The notes beneath the pieces are model-generated. The model worked only from the letters and a program-made list of their open reading frames with translations. It did no database searches and was not told the origin of the DNA. This document shows positions 8,728 to 51,658 of a stretch of 64,000 nucleotides of DNA, piece by piece. Position numbers and translations under genes: made by a program. Source of the DNA: Endomicrobium sp. (GTDB lineage: Bacteria > Elusimicrobiota > Endomicrobiia > Endomicrobiales > Endomicrobiaceae); assembly GCA_031289585.1 (NCBI GenBank), contig JAITPF010000037.1:62001-126000 (forward strand), given 5' to 3'. The first letter of the stretch is position 1; every line of letters begins with the position of its first letter.

Positions 8728-9672
8728 ATGTCAAAGGAATTGTACTTAGGAATAGATATAGGTGGAACTAAGATAAAGATGGCTGTTGTTACTTCTAAAG
8801 GTTCTATAAAAGAAGAGATGGTTAGTGATACTGATATAAATGCAAAACCTTTGAATATTGTAAAATCAGTAATTAAAACGGTTTCAAAATTTAAAAATTA
8901 TTCTAAGATAAAAAATATAGGTGTGGAGATAGCAGGCGATGTCAGCTATGATACGGGAATTGTGCGTTTTTCACCGAATTTGCATAAATGGAAAAAAGTT
9001 CCGCTTAAAGAAATGTTTGAGAAAATTACAGGCAAAAAAACTTATATTGGCAATGATGCAAATACTGCTTCAATGGGTGCTTTTTGGCTTGACACTAAAG
9101 AAAAGGCTTCTAACTTGATATGTATTACGCTTGGTACGGGATTAGGCGGAGGACTTATTTTTAATAAAAAGCTTTATAGAGGCGCAAGTGGAACAGCGGG
9201 TGAAATAGGACATATTAGTATTGATCCTTATGGGCAAAAATGTAAATGTGGAAATAACGGTTGTATAGAGACATTTATAGGTGCAAAATATTTGTCAAAA
9301 CACGCCATAGAATATTTGAAAGAAAGTAAATCGTCGGTAATTGATGAACTTACAGGTAAAAATCATTCATTAATAACGCCCCAACTATTATTTGAAGCAG
9401 CTGTAGCTGGAGATGAAGTTGCAAAGGATATATGGAAAATTATGGGGGAAAAACTTGGTATTTTTCTTTCAAATATTATAAATTTCGCAAATCCTGATAC
9501 TATTGTTATTTGTGGCGGAATAATTCAAGCGGGCAAATATTTTATGGGTGCTGCATCAAATGAAATTAAAAAAAGGGCGTTTGAATTAGCAACAAAATCT
9601 TGCAAAATTCTAATTTCAAAATATACACATAAGCTTGGTGTTGTTGGTGCGGCAATGCTTCTCAAACGATAG
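8728..9672 (+). CDS. ROK family sugar kinase (glucokinase-like)
   Basis: YLGIDIGGTKIKMAVV, LGTGLGGGLIFNKKLYRGASGTAGEIGH, CKCGNNGCIETFIG. Confidence 0.92.
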   Translation: MSKELYLGIDIGGTKIKMAVVTSKGSIKEEMVSDTDINAKPLNIVKSVIKTVSKFKNYSKIKNIGVEIAGDVSYDTGIVRFSPNLHKWKKVPLKEMFEKITGKKTYIGNDANTASMGAFWLDTKEKASNLICITLGTGLGGGLIFNKKLYRGASGTAGEIGHISIDPYGQKCKCGNNGCIETFIGAKYLSKHAIEYLKESKSSVIDELTGKNHSLITPQLLFEAAVAGDEVAKDIWKIMGEKLGIFLSNIINFANPDTIVICGGIIQAGKYFMGAASNEIKKRAFELATKSCKILISKYTHKLGVVGAAMLLKR

Positions 9673-36823: not shown

Positions 36824-37077
36824 AGTTTAAAAGCTCGAAAAAAGACAACATTAGAAAGATTGAGACTCAGTTTAAACAAATAAATGAACAAACAGTATAT
36901 AAAACTGAAAAAGATGGAAATGATATTTTATGGAAACCTACATATAAATGGTATGTAAAGAGTATAGGAATAGTTCTTGGTATATTGATTATTACGTTTT
37001 TTGTATTAAATATTGTTTTAAAACCATATATGAGAAATATTAACCATGAGATTACTCCATGGCTTGGTCAAAGATGA
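36820..37077 (+). CDS. small single-TM protein of unknown function within the kds operon
   Basis: Overlapping start/stop with kdsA and kdsC; KWYVKSIGIVLGILIITFFVLNIVLKPYM TM helix. Confidence 0.75.
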   Translation: MKFKSSKKDNIRKIETQFKQINEQTVYKTEKDGNDILWKPTYKWYVKSIGIVLGILIITFFVLNIVLKPYMRNINHEITPWLGQR

Positions 37078-37616
37078 TGAAAAAAGATAAAAAAGATATT
37101 ATAAAAAAGGCAAAAAAAGTTAAATTGTTAGCCTCTGATGTCGATGGAGTTTTAACGCGCGGTGAAATAATAATATTTAATGATGGTGAAGAGATCAAAG
37201 TATGGAATGTTAAAGATGGAATGGGGTATGGTATACTTTCAAGAATATCTCCGAAAATTAAAACCGCGTGGATAACTGGCAGAAAGTCTCTTCAGGTTGA
37301 AAGACGCGCAAAAGATATGAATATTAATTATCTTGTCCAAAGCTGTATGAGTAAAAAAGAGGCTTTGGAAAAAATATTAATGGAAAATAGTTTTAAAGCA
37401 TCTGAAACGGCATATATTGGTGATGATATAGTAGATATACCGATATTAAAAGTAGTAGGGCTTTCATTGTGTCCTGCTGATGCCTGTGAAGAAGTAAAAC
37501 AATGTGTTGATTATGTTTCAATTTTTAAAGGTGGTGAAGGTGTTGTAAGAGATGTAATAGAACTTGTTATGAAGGCAAAAAACGATTGGAAAAAGTCTTT
37601 GGAAACATATAAATGA
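37074..37616 (+). CDS. kdsC: KDO-8-phosphate phosphatase (HAD)
   Basis: LLASDVDGVLTRGEIII; WNVKDGMGYGIL; WITGRKS; YIGDDIVDIPIL. Confidence 0.93.
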   Translation: MMKKDKKDIIKKAKKVKLLASDVDGVLTRGEIIIFNDGEEIKVWNVKDGMGYGILSRISPKIKTAWITGRKSLQVERRAKDMNINYLVQSCMSKKEALEKILMENSFKASETAYIGDDIVDIPILKVVGLSLCPADACEEVKQCVDYVSIFKGGEGVVRDVIELVMKAKNDWKKSLETYK

Positions 37617-37868
37617 GGATAATTTTACTAGAATTTGCAGAAGAGTTTACTATTACAGCGCGTTTGTTTTAGTAGGACTTGCTCAGAAGATAATGAGTAC
37701 AGACATAAAACTATAAAATCATCTGGTAATTTTGATAAAGATGTTGAGACTCTTGTTCAAAAAGTTTCTCTTGTTTTAGTTTTAGAGGAACATATAAAAC
37801 AATATCCTCGACGGTGGGTATGGTTCTATGAGAGATGGAAGACGAGTTCTAAAGGTAATGTGGCAAAT
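37613..37868 (+). pseudogene. remnant of LpxL/HtrB-type lipid A acyltransferase (N- and C-terminal stubs, centre deleted)
   Basis: N-stub MRIILLEFAEEF / RRVYYYSAFVLVGLAQKI in shifted frames; C-stub FDKDVETLVQKVSLVLVLEEHIKQYPRRWVWFYERWKT matches LpxL C-terminal signature. Confidence 0.65.
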
Positions 37869-40471: not shown

Positions 40472-40930
40472 ATGAAGATTATGGATTTTTTAAGTCAAGA
40501 TGCAATTGTTGTAGATTTAAAGTCGACAGATAAAAAATCGGCGATTATTGAGCTTGTAGAGGTTTTGAAAGATATAAAAAAAATCAAAAAACCTGACGAG
40601 ATTATTGATGTCGTTTTGGAACGAGAAAAGCTTGGTTCTACAGGAATTGGACAGGGTGTTGCAATACCTCATGGAAAAACTGATATTTTGCAGGAACAAA
40701 TAGGAGTTCTTGGAATTTCACGTAAAGGTATAGAATTTAATTCTCTTGATGGTGAACCGGTTAACATAATTTTTCTTTTGGTTGGTCCTATCGAAGTGGC
40801 GGGTCAACATTTAAAGGCGTTGTCAAAAATTTCTAGACTCTTTAAAGATAAATTTTTAAGACAAGCTATAAAAGATGCAACTACAAAAGAAGACGTTGCA
40901 AAAATAATACAACAAGAGGACGCTTATTAA
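40472..40930 (+). CDS. ptsN: PTS IIA-like nitrogen regulatory/fructose-type protein
   Basis: VLEREKLGSTGIGQGVAIPHGKTDI; IIFLLVGPIEVAGQHLKALSKISRLFKD. Confidence 0.92.
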   Translation: MKIMDFLSQDAIVVDLKSTDKKSAIIELVEVLKDIKKIKKPDEIIDVVLEREKLGSTGIGQGVAIPHGKTDILQEQIGVLGISRKGIEFNSLDGEPVNIIFLLVGPIEVAGQHLKALSKISRLFKDKFLRQAIKDATTKEDVAKIIQQEDAY

Positions 40931-40936
40931 GTATAT

Positions 40937-41105
40937 ATGGATATAAATACGCTTCTTAAAGAAAAAGGCGAAGATTTTAAATTCGAACTTATAAACAAGG
41001 ATGTGGCAGAAAATTACAATTCTAGGAGTATATGGTAAAGTCTTGCTGTGATTGTTGAAACGGCAAGCTTAACCAGAGAGATTTACACGATAGGTTACAT
41101 AATAT
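40937..41105 (+). pseudogene. hprK: HPr kinase/phosphorylase remnant (N- and C-terminal stubs)
   Basis: MDINTLLKEKGEDFKFELINKDVAENYNSRSIW* then, same frame after stop, SLAVIVETASLTREIYTIGY resembling HprK C-terminus; sits between ptsN and rapZ. Confidence 0.65.
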
Positions 41106-41969
41106 ATGATAAAATTATACATAATTTCAGGCATGTCAGGTGCAGGAAAAAGTCAAGCTTTAAAAATATTTGAAGATTTTGGCTTTGTCTGCGTTGATAA
41201 TATGCCTGTTCAAATGATAGCTGATTTTGTTGATATATGTCTTAAAAATCCATGCAAATATAGAAATGTGGCAATAAGTATAGATTCACGTGCTGGAGAA
41301 GCACTTACGTCTTTTAAAGATTTGCTTGCTACATTTATATTAAAAGAGAAAAAAGTAAACTATAAAATTATTTTTTTTAATGCGATTGATTCAGTTTTAC
41401 TCAGGCGCTATTCGGAGACTCGTCACCATCATCCTTTGGGAAAATCATTGCTTGAGGGAATAAGACTTGAAAGAAAAATTATAGACAGGATTTTTACGAT
41501 TGCGGACGAAGTTATAGATACTTCAGACCTTACTATTGGGGAACTAAAAAAAGTAATATCAATACTCACAGGCATTCAACATTCCGGAAAACGGTATCTA
41601 AATATTTCTGTTCTTTCTTTTGGATATAAATATGGATTACCAAATGACGCTGACATAGTTTATGATGTACGTTTTATAACAAATCCAAATTATGTTCACG
41701 AATTAAAGTTTAAAACGGGTAAGGATAAAGCTGTTAAAAGGTATATAGAAAAACAAAAAGAATTCAAGACTTTCTTTAATATGTTCTCAAGAATTATAGA
41801 AACGACGCTTCCGAGATATATTAAAGAAGGCAAAAGCTATCTGACTATAGCAATAGGATGTACAGGCGGACGGCACAGATCAGTTTTTGCTGCCGAAAAA
41901 CTTGCCAAATTTTTAAAAGGTAAAAAGTATAATGTAAAACTTAACCACAGAGATATTTTGCATTTATAA
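41106..41969 (+). CDS. rapZ: RNase adapter RapZ / YvcJ P-loop protein
   Basis: IISGMSGAGKSQALKIFEDFGFVCVDNMP; ETRHHHPL; DVRFITNPNYV; IAIGCTGGRHRSVFAAEKLA. Confidence 0.96.
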   Translation: MIKLYIISGMSGAGKSQALKIFEDFGFVCVDNMPVQMIADFVDICLKNPCKYRNVAISIDSRAGEALTSFKDLLATFILKEKKVNYKIIFFNAIDSVLLRRYSETRHHHPLGKSLLEGIRLERKIIDRIFTIADEVIDTSDLTIGELKKVISILTGIQHSGKRYLNISVLSFGYKYGLPNDADIVYDVRFITNPNYVHELKFKTGKDKAVKRYIEKQKEFKTFFNMFSRIIETTLPRYIKEGKSYLTIAIGCTGGRHRSVFAAEKLAKFLKGKKYNVKLNHRDILHL

Positions 41970-42004: not shown

Positions 42005-42415
42005 ATGATTAAGATTATTGTTATAGCGCATGGTGAATTAGCGCAGGAATTGGTCAATTCTGCAGAAACTATTGCCGGAAAACAACCTAATCTCTATGCT
42101 GTTAAAAGAGATAACAGTGATAGTTTAATTCATATGCAGGAAAAGGTGGGCGATCTTTTGAAAAATATAAATGATGAATATGGAACGTTGATACTTGCTG
42201 ATATGATTGGAGGAACTCCATGCAATGCATCCGTTCCAATGTGTAGATCTTTTAACATAGAAATTCTTTCTGGAGTCAATCTTCCGATGGTGTTATCTGC
42301 AGTATTTTCAAGCAAGAATGCGATAAGTGCTTTAGATTTAGTAGAAAAGATACTGCTTGATGGACAAAAAAGCATAATAAACGTAAAAAAAGCGATATTC
42401 AATAAAATAAAATGA
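42005..42415 (+). CDS. PTS mannose-family IIA component
   Basis: IIVIAHGELAQELVNSAETIAGKQ; TLILADMIGGTPCNAS. Confidence 0.9.
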   Translation: MIKIIVIAHGELAQELVNSAETIAGKQPNLYAVKRDNSDSLIHMQEKVGDLLKNINDEYGTLILADMIGGTPCNASVPMCRSFNIEILSGVNLPMVLSAVFSSKNAISALDLVEKILLDGQKSIINVKKAIFNKIK

Positions 42416-42433: not shown

Positions 42434-42943
42434 ATGCCTATAGTTTTAGTAAGAATAGATGACAGATTATTACATGGACAAATAGTGCAAGGATGGCTGA
42501 AAACGATAGATATTGATGCTTTATTGGTTGTTTCAGATATGGCAGTAAAGGATATAATACAACAGACGCTTATGACTATGGCTGCTCCCAGCAATATAAG
42601 ACTTGAAATCAAAGGTCTTAAAGATGCAACAAATGCAGTTGTAAGTGAACAATACGACAAAGAAAAAGTAATGATTTTAGCATTAAATCCATCTGATATA
42701 TTCTATATGATAGAAAATGGAGCTGTTTTTAAATCTGTAAATGTTGGTGGAATGCATTTTACAAGTGGAAAAAGACAGCTTTTATACAATCTTTGTGTAG
42801 ATGATGGCGATGTAGAAAGTCTATACAGAATATACTGTAAAGGTATTGAATTAGAGGGTCGCGTTCTCCCTAAAGATGAGAGAATAAATATTATACCTGT
42901 AATAGAAAAAGAATATTGGGCAATGTGTAAGGTGGGGAAATGA
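42434..42943 (+). CDS. PTS mannose/sorbose-family IIB component
   Basis: VLVRIDDRLLHGQIVQGWLK; VNVGGMHFTSGKRQL. Confidence 0.93.
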   Translation: MPIVLVRIDDRLLHGQIVQGWLKTIDIDALLVVSDMAVKDIIQQTLMTMAAPSNIRLEIKGLKDATNAVVSEQYDKEKVMILALNPSDIFYMIENGAVFKSVNVGGMHFTSGKRQLLYNLCVDDGDVESLYRIYCKGIELEGRVLPKDERINIIPVIEKEYWAMCKVGK

Positions 42944-45003
42944 GTAAAGTTAAGTTTGTTTTTTGTACACATAATCACCAACCTGTAGGAAATTTCGATT
43001 GGGTTTTTGAAAGGGCTTATCAGGTTTCGTATAGACCTTTTATGAACGTTATGTTAAATCATCCAAAAATAAAATGGAGTATGCACGCAAGTGGAATGTT
43101 ATGGGAATATTTTGCAAGAGAACATCTTGATTATATTAAAAATATAAAGAGTCTAGTTGCAAGTGGTAATCTTGAACTATTGTCTGGTGGTTATTATGAA
43201 CCATTGATGTCCTCGATTCCTGATAGAGATAAAATAGGACAAATAAATAAAATGACCTGCTATATAAAGGATAAATTTGGTTGTGAAGAAGCTAATGGAG
43301 TCTGGCTTGCTGAAAGAGTATGGGAGCCAGGTATGGCTAAAATTCTTGCCGAAAGAGGAATAAATTACACTGTATTAGATGATTCTCATTTTGCATCAGC
43401 AGGTATGGATATAGAAAGATTGAATGGTTACTATACTACTGAAGAGCAAGGATATAGCCTTAATATTTTTCCAATAAGTCAGAAAATGAGATATCTTGTT
43501 CCTTTTGCTGATGTTGAAAACACAATAGAATATTTTAAGTACCTTGTAAAAGAGAGTCCAAATTCAGATCCAGTTGTTGTTATGGCAGATGACGGTGAAA
43601 AGTTTGGTATGTGGCCAAGTACTTATAAACACGTTTACGAAAATAAATGGCTTGAACGCTTTTTAACGTCTTTAGAAGAGAATTCCGATATAGTTGAAAC
43701 AGTGAACTTTTCTGAAGTTTTAAAAATCAAAAAATCATCAGGCAGGGTTTATCTATCGTGTTCTTCTTATTTTGAAATGTCGCAATGGGCTTTGCCAACG
43801 TCTACACAGCAATCTTTTGAAAATGTTATAAATAGATGCAGAGAGGACAGTGAAGTAAAAAGATTTTTACGAGGAGGGTTTTGGAGAAACTTTTTGACTA
43901 AATACGAAGAAGCAAATAATATGCATAAAAGAATGATTTACGTAAGCGAAAAAATAAAAAAGTATATTGACAATAAAAAGCCACATATTGAAAAAGCTTT
44001 AGATAGTTTATATGCAGCGCAATGTAACTGTGCTTATTGGCATGGAATTTTCGGTGGACTTTATTTACCTCATTTAAGGAATGCAGTTTACAATATGCTT
44101 TTAAAAGCGGAAAATCTGTACAATAAATCAATGCTTAAAAGACCTACTTGGAATATTTTTGATTTTAACTGTGATTCTGTTGATGAGTATTTATTTGAAA
44201 GCAAAATGCAAAATATTTATGTGTCTCCGGCGGTAGGGGGGTCAATATTTGAGTGGGATATTTTTCAAATTAATCACAATCTTCTTAATGTATTAACAAG
44301 AAGATATGAGTCGTACCATAAAAAACTCAGGGACAATATAAATAATACTGTAATTGTAAGTGACAATGAATCTGAAGTACAGACTATACACGTTAATGCG
44401 GTAAAAGTAAAAGAGATAAATCTCGATAAGTTTTTGGTTTATGATGCTTATAAAAGAGCATCTCTGATAGATCATTTCTTAGCAAACGATATAAAGCATG
44501 ATGAGTGTATGTTTGGTTATTATGAAGAAAAAGGTGATTTTGTATCTGGTATATATAATGCTTGTGTAAAAGGAGCTAAAATTATTCTTAAAAGGTACGG
44601 TAAAGTCAATGGAAAAAATGTTGAGATTGTAAAAGAAATATCGCCGCTTTCAAACGGTTATGCAGTTGCGTATGAAATTAAAAATGATTCATCTGAAATT
44701 CTTGATGTTTGTTTTGCTCCAGAGCAGGTTTTTGCTTTTTCGTCAAAAGCAGAAGATGATTTTGGAGATTTAAAATCAATTGATATATGGAAAAGATATG
44801 ATGATTATTTTAAAATAGAAGTTGAATTAAAGATCTCATGCAAAAGTGACTTGTTTATTTATCCTGTGGAAACAATTTCAAATTCGGACAATGGATATGA
44901 AAAAACTTATCAAGGGACGGTTGCTGTATTTCTTGTAAAATGTGTCATTAAGCCCAAAGAAGTTAGGAAAATTTCTTTTGAAACAATTGTAAATTTTAAA
45001 TGA
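42940..45003 (+). CDS. GH57 alpha-amylase/4-alpha-glucanotransferase-like (DUF1925/1926-type)
   Basis: FVFCTHNHQPVGNFDWVFERAYQ; GVWLAERVWEPGMAKILAERGI; ADDGEKFGMWPSTYKHVYE. Confidence 0.92.
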   Translation: MSKVKFVFCTHNHQPVGNFDWVFERAYQVSYRPFMNVMLNHPKIKWSMHASGMLWEYFAREHLDYIKNIKSLVASGNLELLSGGYYEPLMSSIPDRDKIGQINKMTCYIKDKFGCEEANGVWLAERVWEPGMAKILAERGINYTVLDDSHFASAGMDIERLNGYYTTEEQGYSLNIFPISQKMRYLVPFADVENTIEYFKYLVKESPNSDPVVVMADDGEKFGMWPSTYKHVYENKWLERFLTSLEENSDIVETVNFSEVLKIKKSSGRVYLSCSSYFEMSQWALPTSTQQSFENVINRCREDSEVKRFLRGGFWRNFLTKYEEANNMHKRMIYVSEKIKKYIDNKKPHIEKALDSLYAAQCNCAYWHGIFGGLYLPHLRNAVYNMLLKAENLYNKSMLKRPTWNIFDFNCDSVDEYLFESKMQNIYVSPAVGGSIFEWDIFQINHNLLNVLTRRYESYHKKLRDNINNTVIVSDNESEVQTIHVNAVKVKEINLDKFLVYDAYKRASLIDHFLANDIKHDECMFGYYEEKGDFVSGIYNACVKGAKIILKRYGKVNGKNVEIVKEISPLSNGYAVAYEIKNDSSEILDVCFAPEQVFAFSSKAEDDFGDLKSIDIWKRYDDYFKIEVELKISCKSDLFIYPVETISNSDNGYEKTYQGTVAVFLVKCVIKPKEVRKISFETIVNFK

Positions 45004-45170: not shown

Positions 45171-45809
45171 ATGACAGAGAGTATAGTTCTTCTTGCATTT
45201 ATTGCAGCTTTATGTAGCACTGATATGACTGCGTTTGGGCAGTTTATGATTTGCCGTCCAATATTTTGCGCTCCTCTTATAGGCTTTTTAATGGGTGATA
45301 TAGGCACAAGTCTTTGGATAGGTATGATAAGCGAAATGATTTGGGTAAATGAAATTCCGATGGGTGTAGCCGTGAGTGTTGATGTTTCTGCAATAAGTAT
45401 TTTATCTACCTTTTGGGTTTGTAAATATTTTAAGGATTCTCAAGAGGCTGCAATATGGGGGTTAATTTTAGCTGTGCCGTTTACATATTTTTACAGAGAA
45501 ATAGATGTTGCTGGAAGAAATTTCAATATTAAACTAATGCACTGGGTTGAAAAAGGAATACAAAATGGAAAATATGGACGTATAAATACAGGTATAGTTG
45601 CAAGTTTATTCTTTTTTGTCTTAAGAGCATTTTTGTTTTATATGTTTGCAATGATTGTTGGCGGATGGATATATGAAGGTATTTATTTGCAATTTTCAGC
45701 GTTTATTCTTGAAGGTTTTAGAAAAGCATGGTATTTGTTGCCTGTAGTTGGCTTTGGAATGGTGATATATAATTTTAGGAATATAAAAATTCAGTTTATG
45801 AGAAAATAA
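45171..45809 (+). CDS. PTS mannose/sorbose-family IIC component
   Basis: Polytopic; RPIFCAPLIGFLMGDIGTSLWIGMISEMIWVNEIPMG. Confidence 0.88.
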   Translation: MTESIVLLAFIAALCSTDMTAFGQFMICRPIFCAPLIGFLMGDIGTSLWIGMISEMIWVNEIPMGVAVSVDVSAISILSTFWVCKYFKDSQEAAIWGLILAVPFTYFYREIDVAGRNFNIKLMHWVEKGIQNGKYGRINTGIVASLFFFVLRAFLFYMFAMIVGGWIYEGIYLQFSAFILEGFRKAWYLLPVVGFGMVIYNFRNIKIQFMRK

Positions 45810-45810
45810 T

Positions 45811-46602
45811 ATGCTTAAGAGATATTCCCAAATGTTTATAAGGGCTTTTTTTATACAGGCGTTATGGAATTTTGAAAGAATGCAAAATATCGGATTTTTG
45901 TTTATATTGAAACCTTTTTTGTATAAAATTTATTTAAATAAAGATAAAAGAAAGGAAGCTTTTTTAAGACATGCAGTATTTTTTAATACGCATCCTTATT
46001 TGGCTAATATTATAATTGCAATTGTTGTAAATATGGAGAAGAAAATAGCTGAGAGTGGGCTTGATGAAAAAGTTTTAGATATAAATATAATTAAGAATAC
46101 TATGACAGGACCTTTAGCTGCAATAGGCGATTCATTGTTTTGGGGAACACTAAGACCTTTAGCATCATTTGTAAGCATATTTATGGTAGTACTTTTTGCA
46201 AAAGCTTTAAACAATAGGTTTGAATCGTATAGTATCTTAATTCCATTAGTTTTTATTGTTTTTTACAATATTGTACATCTTCCAGTAAGATATTGGTTTA
46301 TGTTTATGGGTTTTAAACTTGATAAGGAAAGTATTGTAATGTTGTCAAAACTTGAATTTAAGATTCTATTGGAAATGGTACGTTATAGCGGAGTTGTAAT
46401 TATAGTTGCCACATTGTTTTTATATCTTAAAATTTTTGGATTTGGATCTAATGGTATATTTTTCGGGACTAATATATACGATATATTTGTGTATAGTACT
46501 GTGCTTATTCTTTCGGTTTTTGCATCTGGAAAATTTGGGGCAGTCTTTTTATTTTACGGCATAATATTAATTTGCATTATAATGTCATATTTAGGGATAT
46601 AA
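45811..46602 (+). CDS. PTS mannose-family IID component
   Basis: RAFFIQALWNFERMQNIGFLFILKP; FFNTHPYLANIIIAIVVNMEKK; TGPLAAIGDSLFWGTLRP. Confidence 0.92.
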   Translation: MLKRYSQMFIRAFFIQALWNFERMQNIGFLFILKPFLYKIYLNKDKRKEAFLRHAVFFNTHPYLANIIIAIVVNMEKKIAESGLDEKVLDINIIKNTMTGPLAAIGDSLFWGTLRPLASFVSIFMVVLFAKALNNRFESYSILIPLVFIVFYNIVHLPVRYWFMFMGFKLDKESIVMLSKLEFKILLEMVRYSGVVIIVATLFLYLKIFGFGSNGIFFGTNIYDIFVYSTVLILSVFASGKFGAVFLFYGIILICIIMSYLGI

Positions 46603-46604
46603 AA

Positions 46605-46868
46605 ATGAAGGAAAAAGTTATTGTTGTTTCAAATAAAATGGGATTACACGCAAGACCTGCAGCTATGCTTGTGCAGACTATGACGAGGTATCAGTCCACG
46701 GTTAAAATTTTAAAAGATGATTTTGAGGTGGATGCAAAAAACATTATGGGTGTGATGACTTTAGCTGCTGGGCACGGAAGCGAATTAAAATTCATTATTA
46801 ATGGTCCTGATGAAAACGAAACTTTGTTTGCAATTGAAGGTTTGTTTAAATCTAATTTCAGTGAATAG
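46605..46868 (+). CDS. ptsH: phosphocarrier protein HPr (His15 present; position 46 is Asn)
   Basis: VSNKMGLHARPAAMLVQ; VDAKNIMGVMTLAAGHGSEL. Confidence 0.95.
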   Translation: MKEKVIVVSNKMGLHARPAAMLVQTMTRYQSTVKILKDDFEVDAKNIMGVMTLAAGHGSELKFIINGPDENETLFAIEGLFKSNFSE

Positions 46869-46876
46869 GAGTAAAA

Positions 46877-48616
46877 ATGTTTAACAGAAGAAACATCGTA
46901 TTTAAAGGTATTGCTGCATCACCGGGAATTGCAGTTGGCAATGTTTTTCTCCTTGAGGTTGATGATTTTTGTTTGATTCATAAAGAAATACCTATAAATA
47001 TAAGAGAAGCTGAAAAAAAGCGTTTAAATGATGCTATTGAAAAAACAAAAGCTGAACTTAAAATAACTTATGATAAAATTAATGAAGTTCTTGATAAAAA
47101 TTATGCTCAAATAGTCAATGTTCATCTTTTGATTTTAGCTGACTCGTCGATGAGAAAAGACATTGATAAACTTATAGAAAGCGGAGTTAATGCAGAATAT
47201 GCTCTTTTTAAAGTTATAGATAAAATTATTCGTTCCTTTGAAGCCATAGAAGATGATTATTTTAGAGAAAGGAAACTTGACGTACAAGATGTAGGAAAAA
47301 AAATTCTTAGTAATCTTGTCGGAAAACAAAAAAAAACTATCGCAAGCTTGGATAAAGATTCAATAGTAATTGCTCATAATTTAACTCCTACGGATACTGT
47401 TTCTATAAGAGAAAAATTAGTTAAAGGTTTTGCAACAGATATTGGTGGAAAAACTTCGCATACAGCTATTATTGCGCAAGGGCTTGAAATTCCATCTGTT
47501 GTTGGGTTAAAAGTAATATCTTCGCAGGCAAGAACCGGCGATGTTATAATTATCAATGGAGATAAAGGTGAGATTATCTTAAATCCTACGCCAGAAGTAA
47601 TAGCAGAATATAAAAGAGAATACGATATACAGTTTGCAAAAAAGAAAGAACTTGAAAAATTAAAAAATTTACCAGCTGAAACAATTGATAATCACAAAGT
47701 TTTAATTTATGCAAATGTTGATAATCCCGATGAAGTACAGTCTATCTTAAAAAATGGTGCAACTGGTATAGGTCTTTATAGAACAGAATATATATTTTTT
47801 ACTCGCAAAGCTATTCCATCAGAAAAAGATCATCTTGAAAAATATTTACAAGTTGTGAAAAAAATGTCACCGTATCCGACTGTTATAAGAACTGTAGATT
47901 TAGGTGGCGATAAGTTAGCAAAAATGGGTCTTTTAAATATAGAGCATGAAGAAAACCCTTTTTTAGGTTTGAGAGCTATAAGACTTTGCCTTAAATATCC
48001 TAAAATTTTTATCGATCAATTGAGAGGAATTTTAAAAGCGTCAGCTTATGGAAAAATAAGGCTTATGTATCCTATGATATCTGGGCTTGGAGAACTTCGT
48101 GACGCTAATAAAATCCTTGAGAAAGTGAAGCAGGATTTAAGAAAAGAGCATGTAGAATTCGATGAAGATATGGAAATAGGTACGATGATAGAAGTGCCGT
48201 CTGCTGCGATGATAATAGATGCTATTGCTAAAGAGGTTGATTTCGTTTCAATAGGAACTAATGATTTGATACAATATGTACTTGCTATTGATAGAGTCAA
48301 TGAGAATGTTGCAAATTTATATGACCCTTTACATCCTGCAATTTTAAGATATATTAAAAAGATTATAGATGAAAGTCATAATGCAGGAATAAGTGTAAGT
48401 ATGTGTGGTGAAATGGCGGGAGATCCTTATTATACACCTATACTTATAGGATTTGGACTTGACGAGTTCAGTGTATCATCAATACAGATTTCTAAAGTTA
48501 AAAAAGTTATAAGAAGTATCTATTTCGCAGATGTCAAGAGAGCTGCAGAAGAAATGTTAAAATGTAGCGATAGAAATGAAATTTTAAAAATTATGACTAC
48601 TATTCAAATACATTAA
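46877..48616 (+). CDS. ptsI: PTS enzyme I
   Basis: GKTSHTAIIAQGLEIPSVVG; GIGLYRTEYIFF; IGTNDLIQYVLAIDRVNENVANLYDPLHPAIL; VSMCGEMAGDP. Confidence 0.97.
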   Translation: MFNRRNIVFKGIAASPGIAVGNVFLLEVDDFCLIHKEIPINIREAEKKRLNDAIEKTKAELKITYDKINEVLDKNYAQIVNVHLLILADSSMRKDIDKLIESGVNAEYALFKVIDKIIRSFEAIEDDYFRERKLDVQDVGKKILSNLVGKQKKTIASLDKDSIVIAHNLTPTDTVSIREKLVKGFATDIGGKTSHTAIIAQGLEIPSVVGLKVISSQARTGDVIIINGDKGEIILNPTPEVIAEYKREYDIQFAKKKELEKLKNLPAETIDNHKVLIYANVDNPDEVQSILKNGATGIGLYRTEYIFFTRKAIPSEKDHLEKYLQVVKKMSPYPTVIRTVDLGGDKLAKMGLLNIEHEENPFLGLRAIRLCLKYPKIFIDQLRGILKASAYGKIRLMYPMISGLGELRDANKILEKVKQDLRKEHVEFDEDMEIGTMIEVPSAAMIIDAIAKEVDFVSIGTNDLIQYVLAIDRVNENVANLYDPLHPAILRYIKKIIDESHNAGISVSMCGEMAGDPYYTPILIGFGLDEFSVSSIQISKVKKVIRSIYFADVKRAAEEMLKCSDRNEILKIMTTIQIH

Positions 48617-51039: not shown

Positions 51040-51420
51040 TTTGTTGGTCATCAATACAGTTGAAAAGAGAGTCGTCGTTATGCGATGCAGAAGGTAGTGT
51101 GATAATGATAACAGAACATTAGCGTCGTCATTTAAAAGCCTTATTGAAAACTAGGTACGTAAGCCCATAGAGGAAACAGATCCTAAATTTTTTGATGAAA
51201 TGAAAAAATTTTAGGACAAGCTGAGTTTGCAATCTAATTACAAGCTACGAACTTCAGTCCGTAGTAGTTGACTGCGAATCGTCACAAACAGTGTTGTCAT
51301 TGCGATGAGAGACAAAGTCCCGACGAAGCAATCTGCGTCGTTAAGTCTCGCCTCTGTGTCATTCCCGCGCACACGGGAATCCACGTTTGTCGTTGCTATC
51401 GCCATTGCCTGCGTCATCCC
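51040..51420. repeat. mosaic hairpin repeat block after lepA
   Basis: GTTGTCATTGCGATGAGAGACAAAGTCCCGACGAAGCAATCT; TCATTCCCGCGCACACGGGAATCCACG. Confidence 0.8.
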
Positions 51421-51658
51421 TTTTGGTATTCGATATTTAAATAAAAATATTTGTTTAAGAGTTAGTACAGTAAATAATTCTAATTTTAATAGAGATAAAA
51501 TTAATTATACTTATGAGTTTGCAGTAAGTATAAGAAAATATCAATTCTCTTTTGCTTTGGAAGAAAATAAAACATTCGGTGAAAAATTCTTGAAATATAT
51601 TATTTCTTTGTGTGTCTATATAACTTACTATAAGTAATCTTGAGAAACGGTGGGTTTG

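Follow-up and report, generated by a model that had tools for sequence, protein, structure and literature searches.

HprK, the HPr kinase/phosphorylase, phosphorylates Ser46 of HPr and is of major importance for the catabolite repression of Firmicutes (PMC2405797). There are also bacteria that naturally lack this enzyme, such as the enterobacteria and the Actinobacteria, and these operate a sugar PTS without a Ser46 kinase (in part after PMC2405797). The genus Candidatus Endomicrobiellum comprises all flagellate endosymbionts characterised to date, and both its progressive genome erosion and the retention of a mannose-type PTS in most of its lineages have been published (PMC11257099). From its relatives, we infer that the genome studied here belongs to the same genus and to an endosymbiont-type bacterium. 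The bacterium is a relative of those that live within protists of the termite gut, and HPr kinase is normally a brake on sugar uptake. Our collection includes 43 genomes of the genus, among them this one (G000), which is a draft, metagenome-like assembly of 1.28 Mb in 49 contigs that is 86% complete. Within the library of papers searched, none names both Endomicrobium and HPr kinase.

The closest counterparts of the locus are the intact hprK genes of 27 congeneric genomes, in which a full-length hprK is located between ptsN and rapZ in an interval of 932-1209 nucleotides. In the 64,000-nucleotide stretch of DNA analysed here (the window), which covers positions 62001-126000 of contig C47, the same interval spans 175 nucleotides, or 178 if the ptsN stop codon is included. 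The hprK remnants, ptsN, rapZ and the PTS genes are all on the forward strand. An earlier reading of the window, made from the sequence only, had placed the relics of an HPr kinase gene at positions 40937-41105, between ptsN and rapZ. The sequence and translations that it quoted for this region are correct, and the location is syntenic with the 27 congeneric genomes. The open reading frame at 40937-41038 begins with ATG, has 33 codons and is translated as MDINTLLKEKGEDFKFELINKDVAENYNSRSIW, which ends at a stop codon and is followed by SLAVIVETASLTREIYTIGY.

A DNA profile was built from the 27 intact congeneric hprK genes and used to search the 175 nucleotides with nhmmer. There are two matches: profile positions 1-57 align at 40937-40993 (26.4 bits, E 2e-8) and positions 785-855 align at 41011-41079 (19.0 bits, E 3.5e-6), whereas the best score among 1000 dinucleotide-preserving shuffles is -2.4 bits. 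Thus, the proposed resemblance of the two stubs to the termini of HprK holds, and alignment to the congeneric genes gives the same result, with remnants matching both ends. The 5' remnant corresponds to codons 1-19. Between the remnants, at 40994..41010, lies a deletion junction whose exact breakpoint is not resolvable and at which approximately 727 nucleotides of hprK are lost. The missing part (profile 58-784) includes the entire P-loop kinase domain, as had been claimed. Compared with an intact congeneric hprK, the remnant is some 765 nucleotides shorter and has neither a kinase domain nor an open frame.

The sequence-only reading attributed this arrangement to one internal deletion, and that part of it does not stand. 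The last approximately 75 nucleotides of hprK, past 41079, are missing or unrecognisable, and therefore more than one deletion has affected the gene. In addition, the 3' remnant carries single-base indels, because of which the segment NYNSRSIW and its stop codon represent HprK sequence in a different frame; in the alignment, AATTACAATTCTAGGAGTATATGGTAAAGTCTT stands opposite EITIPVxPGRNL of the relatives. The C-terminal stub does lie in the same frame after the stop, but no meaning can be attached to this since the frame is incidental owing to the indels. The history of this hprK is a central loss of approximately 727 nucleotides, a 3' loss and single-base indels, and not one clean deletion. 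The features that define a pseudogene are all present, namely homology above chance, a syntenic position, and a coding sequence disabled by an internal deletion, indels, a stop codon and the loss of its 3' end. Those expected of a functional HprK system are lacking, specifically the PF07475 kinase domain with its P-loop, the PF02603 N-terminal domain and an HPr with a phosphorylatable Ser46.

A second hprK would have undermined the proposed loss of HPr kinase. There is no match to Hpr_kinase_C (PF07475) in the 86%-complete assembly at E<=1, and likewise none to Hpr_kinase_N (PF02603) at the same threshold. The case against another hprK is strong, though not absolute because the assembly is incomplete and a further copy could lie in the missing part.

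The neighbouring genes and the remainder of the PTS are full length, in agreement with the sequence-only reading. Immediately upstream is ptsN (EIIA-Ntr type; 40472..40930; PF00359, E 5.8e-36) with its IPHG active-site motif, and immediately downstream is rapZ (41106..41969; PF03668 and PF22740) with its Walker A motif. The mannose-family gene set is complete and open, and each full-length frame has Pfam matches: EIIA of the mannose type (42005..42415; PF03610, E 4.3e-19), EIIB of the mannose/sorbose type (42434..42943; PF03830, E 1.8e-42), EIIC of the mannose/sorbose type (45171..45809; PF03609, E 2.6e-26), which is full length relative to its relatives, EIID of the mannose type (45811..46602; PF03613, E 7.3e-43), ptsH encoding HPr (46605..46868; PF00381, E 3.8e-27) with the His15 motif GLHARP, and ptsI encoding EI (46877..48616; PF02896, PF05524 and PF00391) with the active-site motif GGKTSHTAI. 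Active-site motifs were tested for, and are present in, PtsN, RapZ, EIIA, EIIB, HPr and EI. The pN/pS values of the PTS proteins range from 0.14 to 0.46 for the pair G000-G025, which is a pairwise comparison and does not isolate the G000 branch. In their conservation, the PTS proteins resemble those of relatives that have hprK. The operon also includes, between EIIB and EIIC, a gene of the GH57-family 4-alpha-glucanotransferase/amylase type (42940-45003). Several relatives have this gene at full length, whereas others lack it or carry a broken copy.

The HPr sequence bears directly on the loss of hprK. Codon 46 of ptsH (46740..46742) is AAC, encoding asparagine, whereas relatives have AGC or AGT, encoding serine. 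Ser46 is present in the HPr of all 27 congeneric genomes that carry hprK, and also in the eight other congeneric HPr proteins, all from genomes in which hprK is broken, absent or unseen. There are 24 HPr columns that are invariant among the 27 hprK-carrying genomes, and position 46 is the only one of these that is changed here. The replacement fits what is expected of a site that is no longer used, and would be consistent with a PTS freed from Ser46 control. Asn46 may have arisen either before or after the hprK deletion. A literature search for S46N and HPr returned nothing on the subject, as judged by titles and abstracts.

A wider contrast at HPr residues 45-48 between genomes with and without hprK (K45R and M48I in G013, M48I in G011, M48T in G019) was dropped because G016, the sister of G011, carries hprK and also has M48I, and because the other cases come from PTS loci that are in decay. 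In the class, the HPr proteins of three members that lack hprK (L175, L176 and L177, from G048, G055 and G053) retain Ser46 and are altered in the residues just after it, reading RSILE, KSVMD and KSVLD, respectively, in place of KSIMG.

A tree was built from LptB, PtsN, RapZ and LepA to place the state of hprK across the genus. The gene is decayed or missing on several branches: G000; G066, whose sister G064 has an intact hprK (support 100); G013/G010/G033 (support 100); G011, whose sister G016 has an intact hprK (support 91); G019/G008 (support 100); G007; and the much reduced G018/G032/G022. The gene has decayed repeatedly within the genus, and the breakpoints mostly differ between the genomes concerned, although the weak support of the deep nodes leaves the exact number of losses uncertain. 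The pseudogenes of G066, G013/G010/G033, G011 and G008 resemble the one described here in that they have decayed at the same locus with ptsN and rapZ kept. However, their breakpoints are different, most of these genomes have lost EII genes, and none of the HPr proteins found there has lost Ser46. More generally, in most genomes with a decayed hprK the EII genes are lost or broken as well, at times along with HPr and EI, and G000 is the one genome in which hprK is in scraps and the PTS is complete and open. G066 comes near to this state, keeping its EII genes but with one stop in the EIID match. The hprK of G019 (L125) is full length with one frameshift, and in the same genome EI is frameshifted and most of EIIC is missing; this PTS could represent early or recent decay or a sequencing error.

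We are highly confident that positions 40937-41079 hold an hprK pseudogene remnant that arose through ordinary genome erosion while the PTS, ptsN and rapZ were kept. The data directly establish the remnant and where it lies, that the assembly as available has no further hprK, that the PTS genes are intact, and Asn46. Erosion is also in line with the decays of hprK at other breakpoints in the genus, with the probable erosion of another gene nearby and with the published erosion of genomes in the genus. An assembler that skipped the middle of an intact hprK could produce a shortened interval, and the draft, metagenome-like nature of the 49-contig assembly leaves some room for such an error. Nevertheless, a simple mis-join would not be expected to leave remnants with single-base indels, a stop codon and no 3' end, all of which suit a pseudogene of some age. 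The genes on either side are intact, comparable but different decays occur in related genomes, and an artefact is very improbable. It is equally hard to credit that the remnant has taken on a new function between ptsN and rapZ, whether as an RNA element or as a peptide of 33 residues. The ATG-started frame does remain, but the peptide has no Pfam match, the second half of the frame is out-of-frame HprK sequence, no Rfam family reaches its gathering score, and the predicted RNA folding is no better than that of shuffled sequences (z -0.89).

How Asn46 relates to the pseudogene is a separate matter. The residue may be unrelated to the loss of hprK and reflect a G-to-A transition that arose by chance in the AT-rich genome of an endosymbiont. 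AGC and AAC differ by this one transition, the change is seen in one draft genome, and a single substitution among 24 invariant columns would strike Ser46 about once in 24 times. In addition, members of the class that lack hprK keep the serine, and therefore Ser46 is not lost simply as a result of the kinase being absent. Against chance, it is exactly the target of HprK that is hit, in a genome with hprK in scraps and the PTS whole, and none of the 27 relatives with hprK has a change at this position. On balance, coincidence is a serious contender that falls somewhat short of probable. More tentatively still, HPr might have become fixed in a permanently unbraked form after HprK was lost. Asparagine, to judge from helix N-cap preferences, should still be able to cap the helix, could not be phosphorylated, and would leave the PTS running on host sugar without this control.

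In this reading, hprK eroded as follows. Deletions removed the kinase/phosphorylase domain and small indels came later, but the mannose-type PTS was retained in full, as were ptsN and rapZ. Residue 46 of HPr would then no longer be phosphorylated, and phosphate would therefore pass from EI via HPr to EIIA/B with no brake by HprK, giving unthrottled uptake. Residue 46 would since have become asparagine, or already have been so, and this may be tolerated because the kinase is gone. A CcpA-type read-out of HPr phosphorylation was rejected: a LacI-family regulator was not found in this genome, hence no CcpA was found either, and the effect lost along with HprK was therefore probably a direct throttling of phosphotransfer.

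The loss of hprK here is endosymbiont genome erosion of a known kind and essentially ordinary gene loss; the added interest is that the target serine in HPr is lost too. Enterobacteria and Actinobacteria are without HprK as whole groups, whereas here the loss is specific to one lineage, which still carries the relic at the locus and has Ser46 replaced. The locus shows clearly how a regulator was lost ahead of its pathway, with a matching change at the target site, and if HPr is indeed fixed in an unbraked form, regulator and site of action would have been lost together in nature. Because the genus has lost hprK more than once, it allows the order of losses to be compared.

Several other features of this genome may be mentioned. 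Another gene, 3 kb upstream of hprK, has probably eroded as well: positions 37635-37860, between a kdsC-like gene (37059-37616) and an lptC-like gene, hold a putative lipid A acyltransferase remnant with a match of 72 residues to PF03279 at the C-terminal end of the family (E 0.00085, which does not reach the curated cut-off). A ROK-family gene at 8743-9669 (PF00480, E 3.3e-65) is a candidate glucokinase, and the genome holds two ROK-family sugar-kinase candidates, together with a candidate organophosphate antiporter whose score falls short of the family cut-off. Finally, a 110-codon frame at 51305-51637, beginning MRDKVPTKQSASLSLASVSFPRTREST, has no Pfam match and includes a SFPRTRES stretch that may be a translated repeat element.
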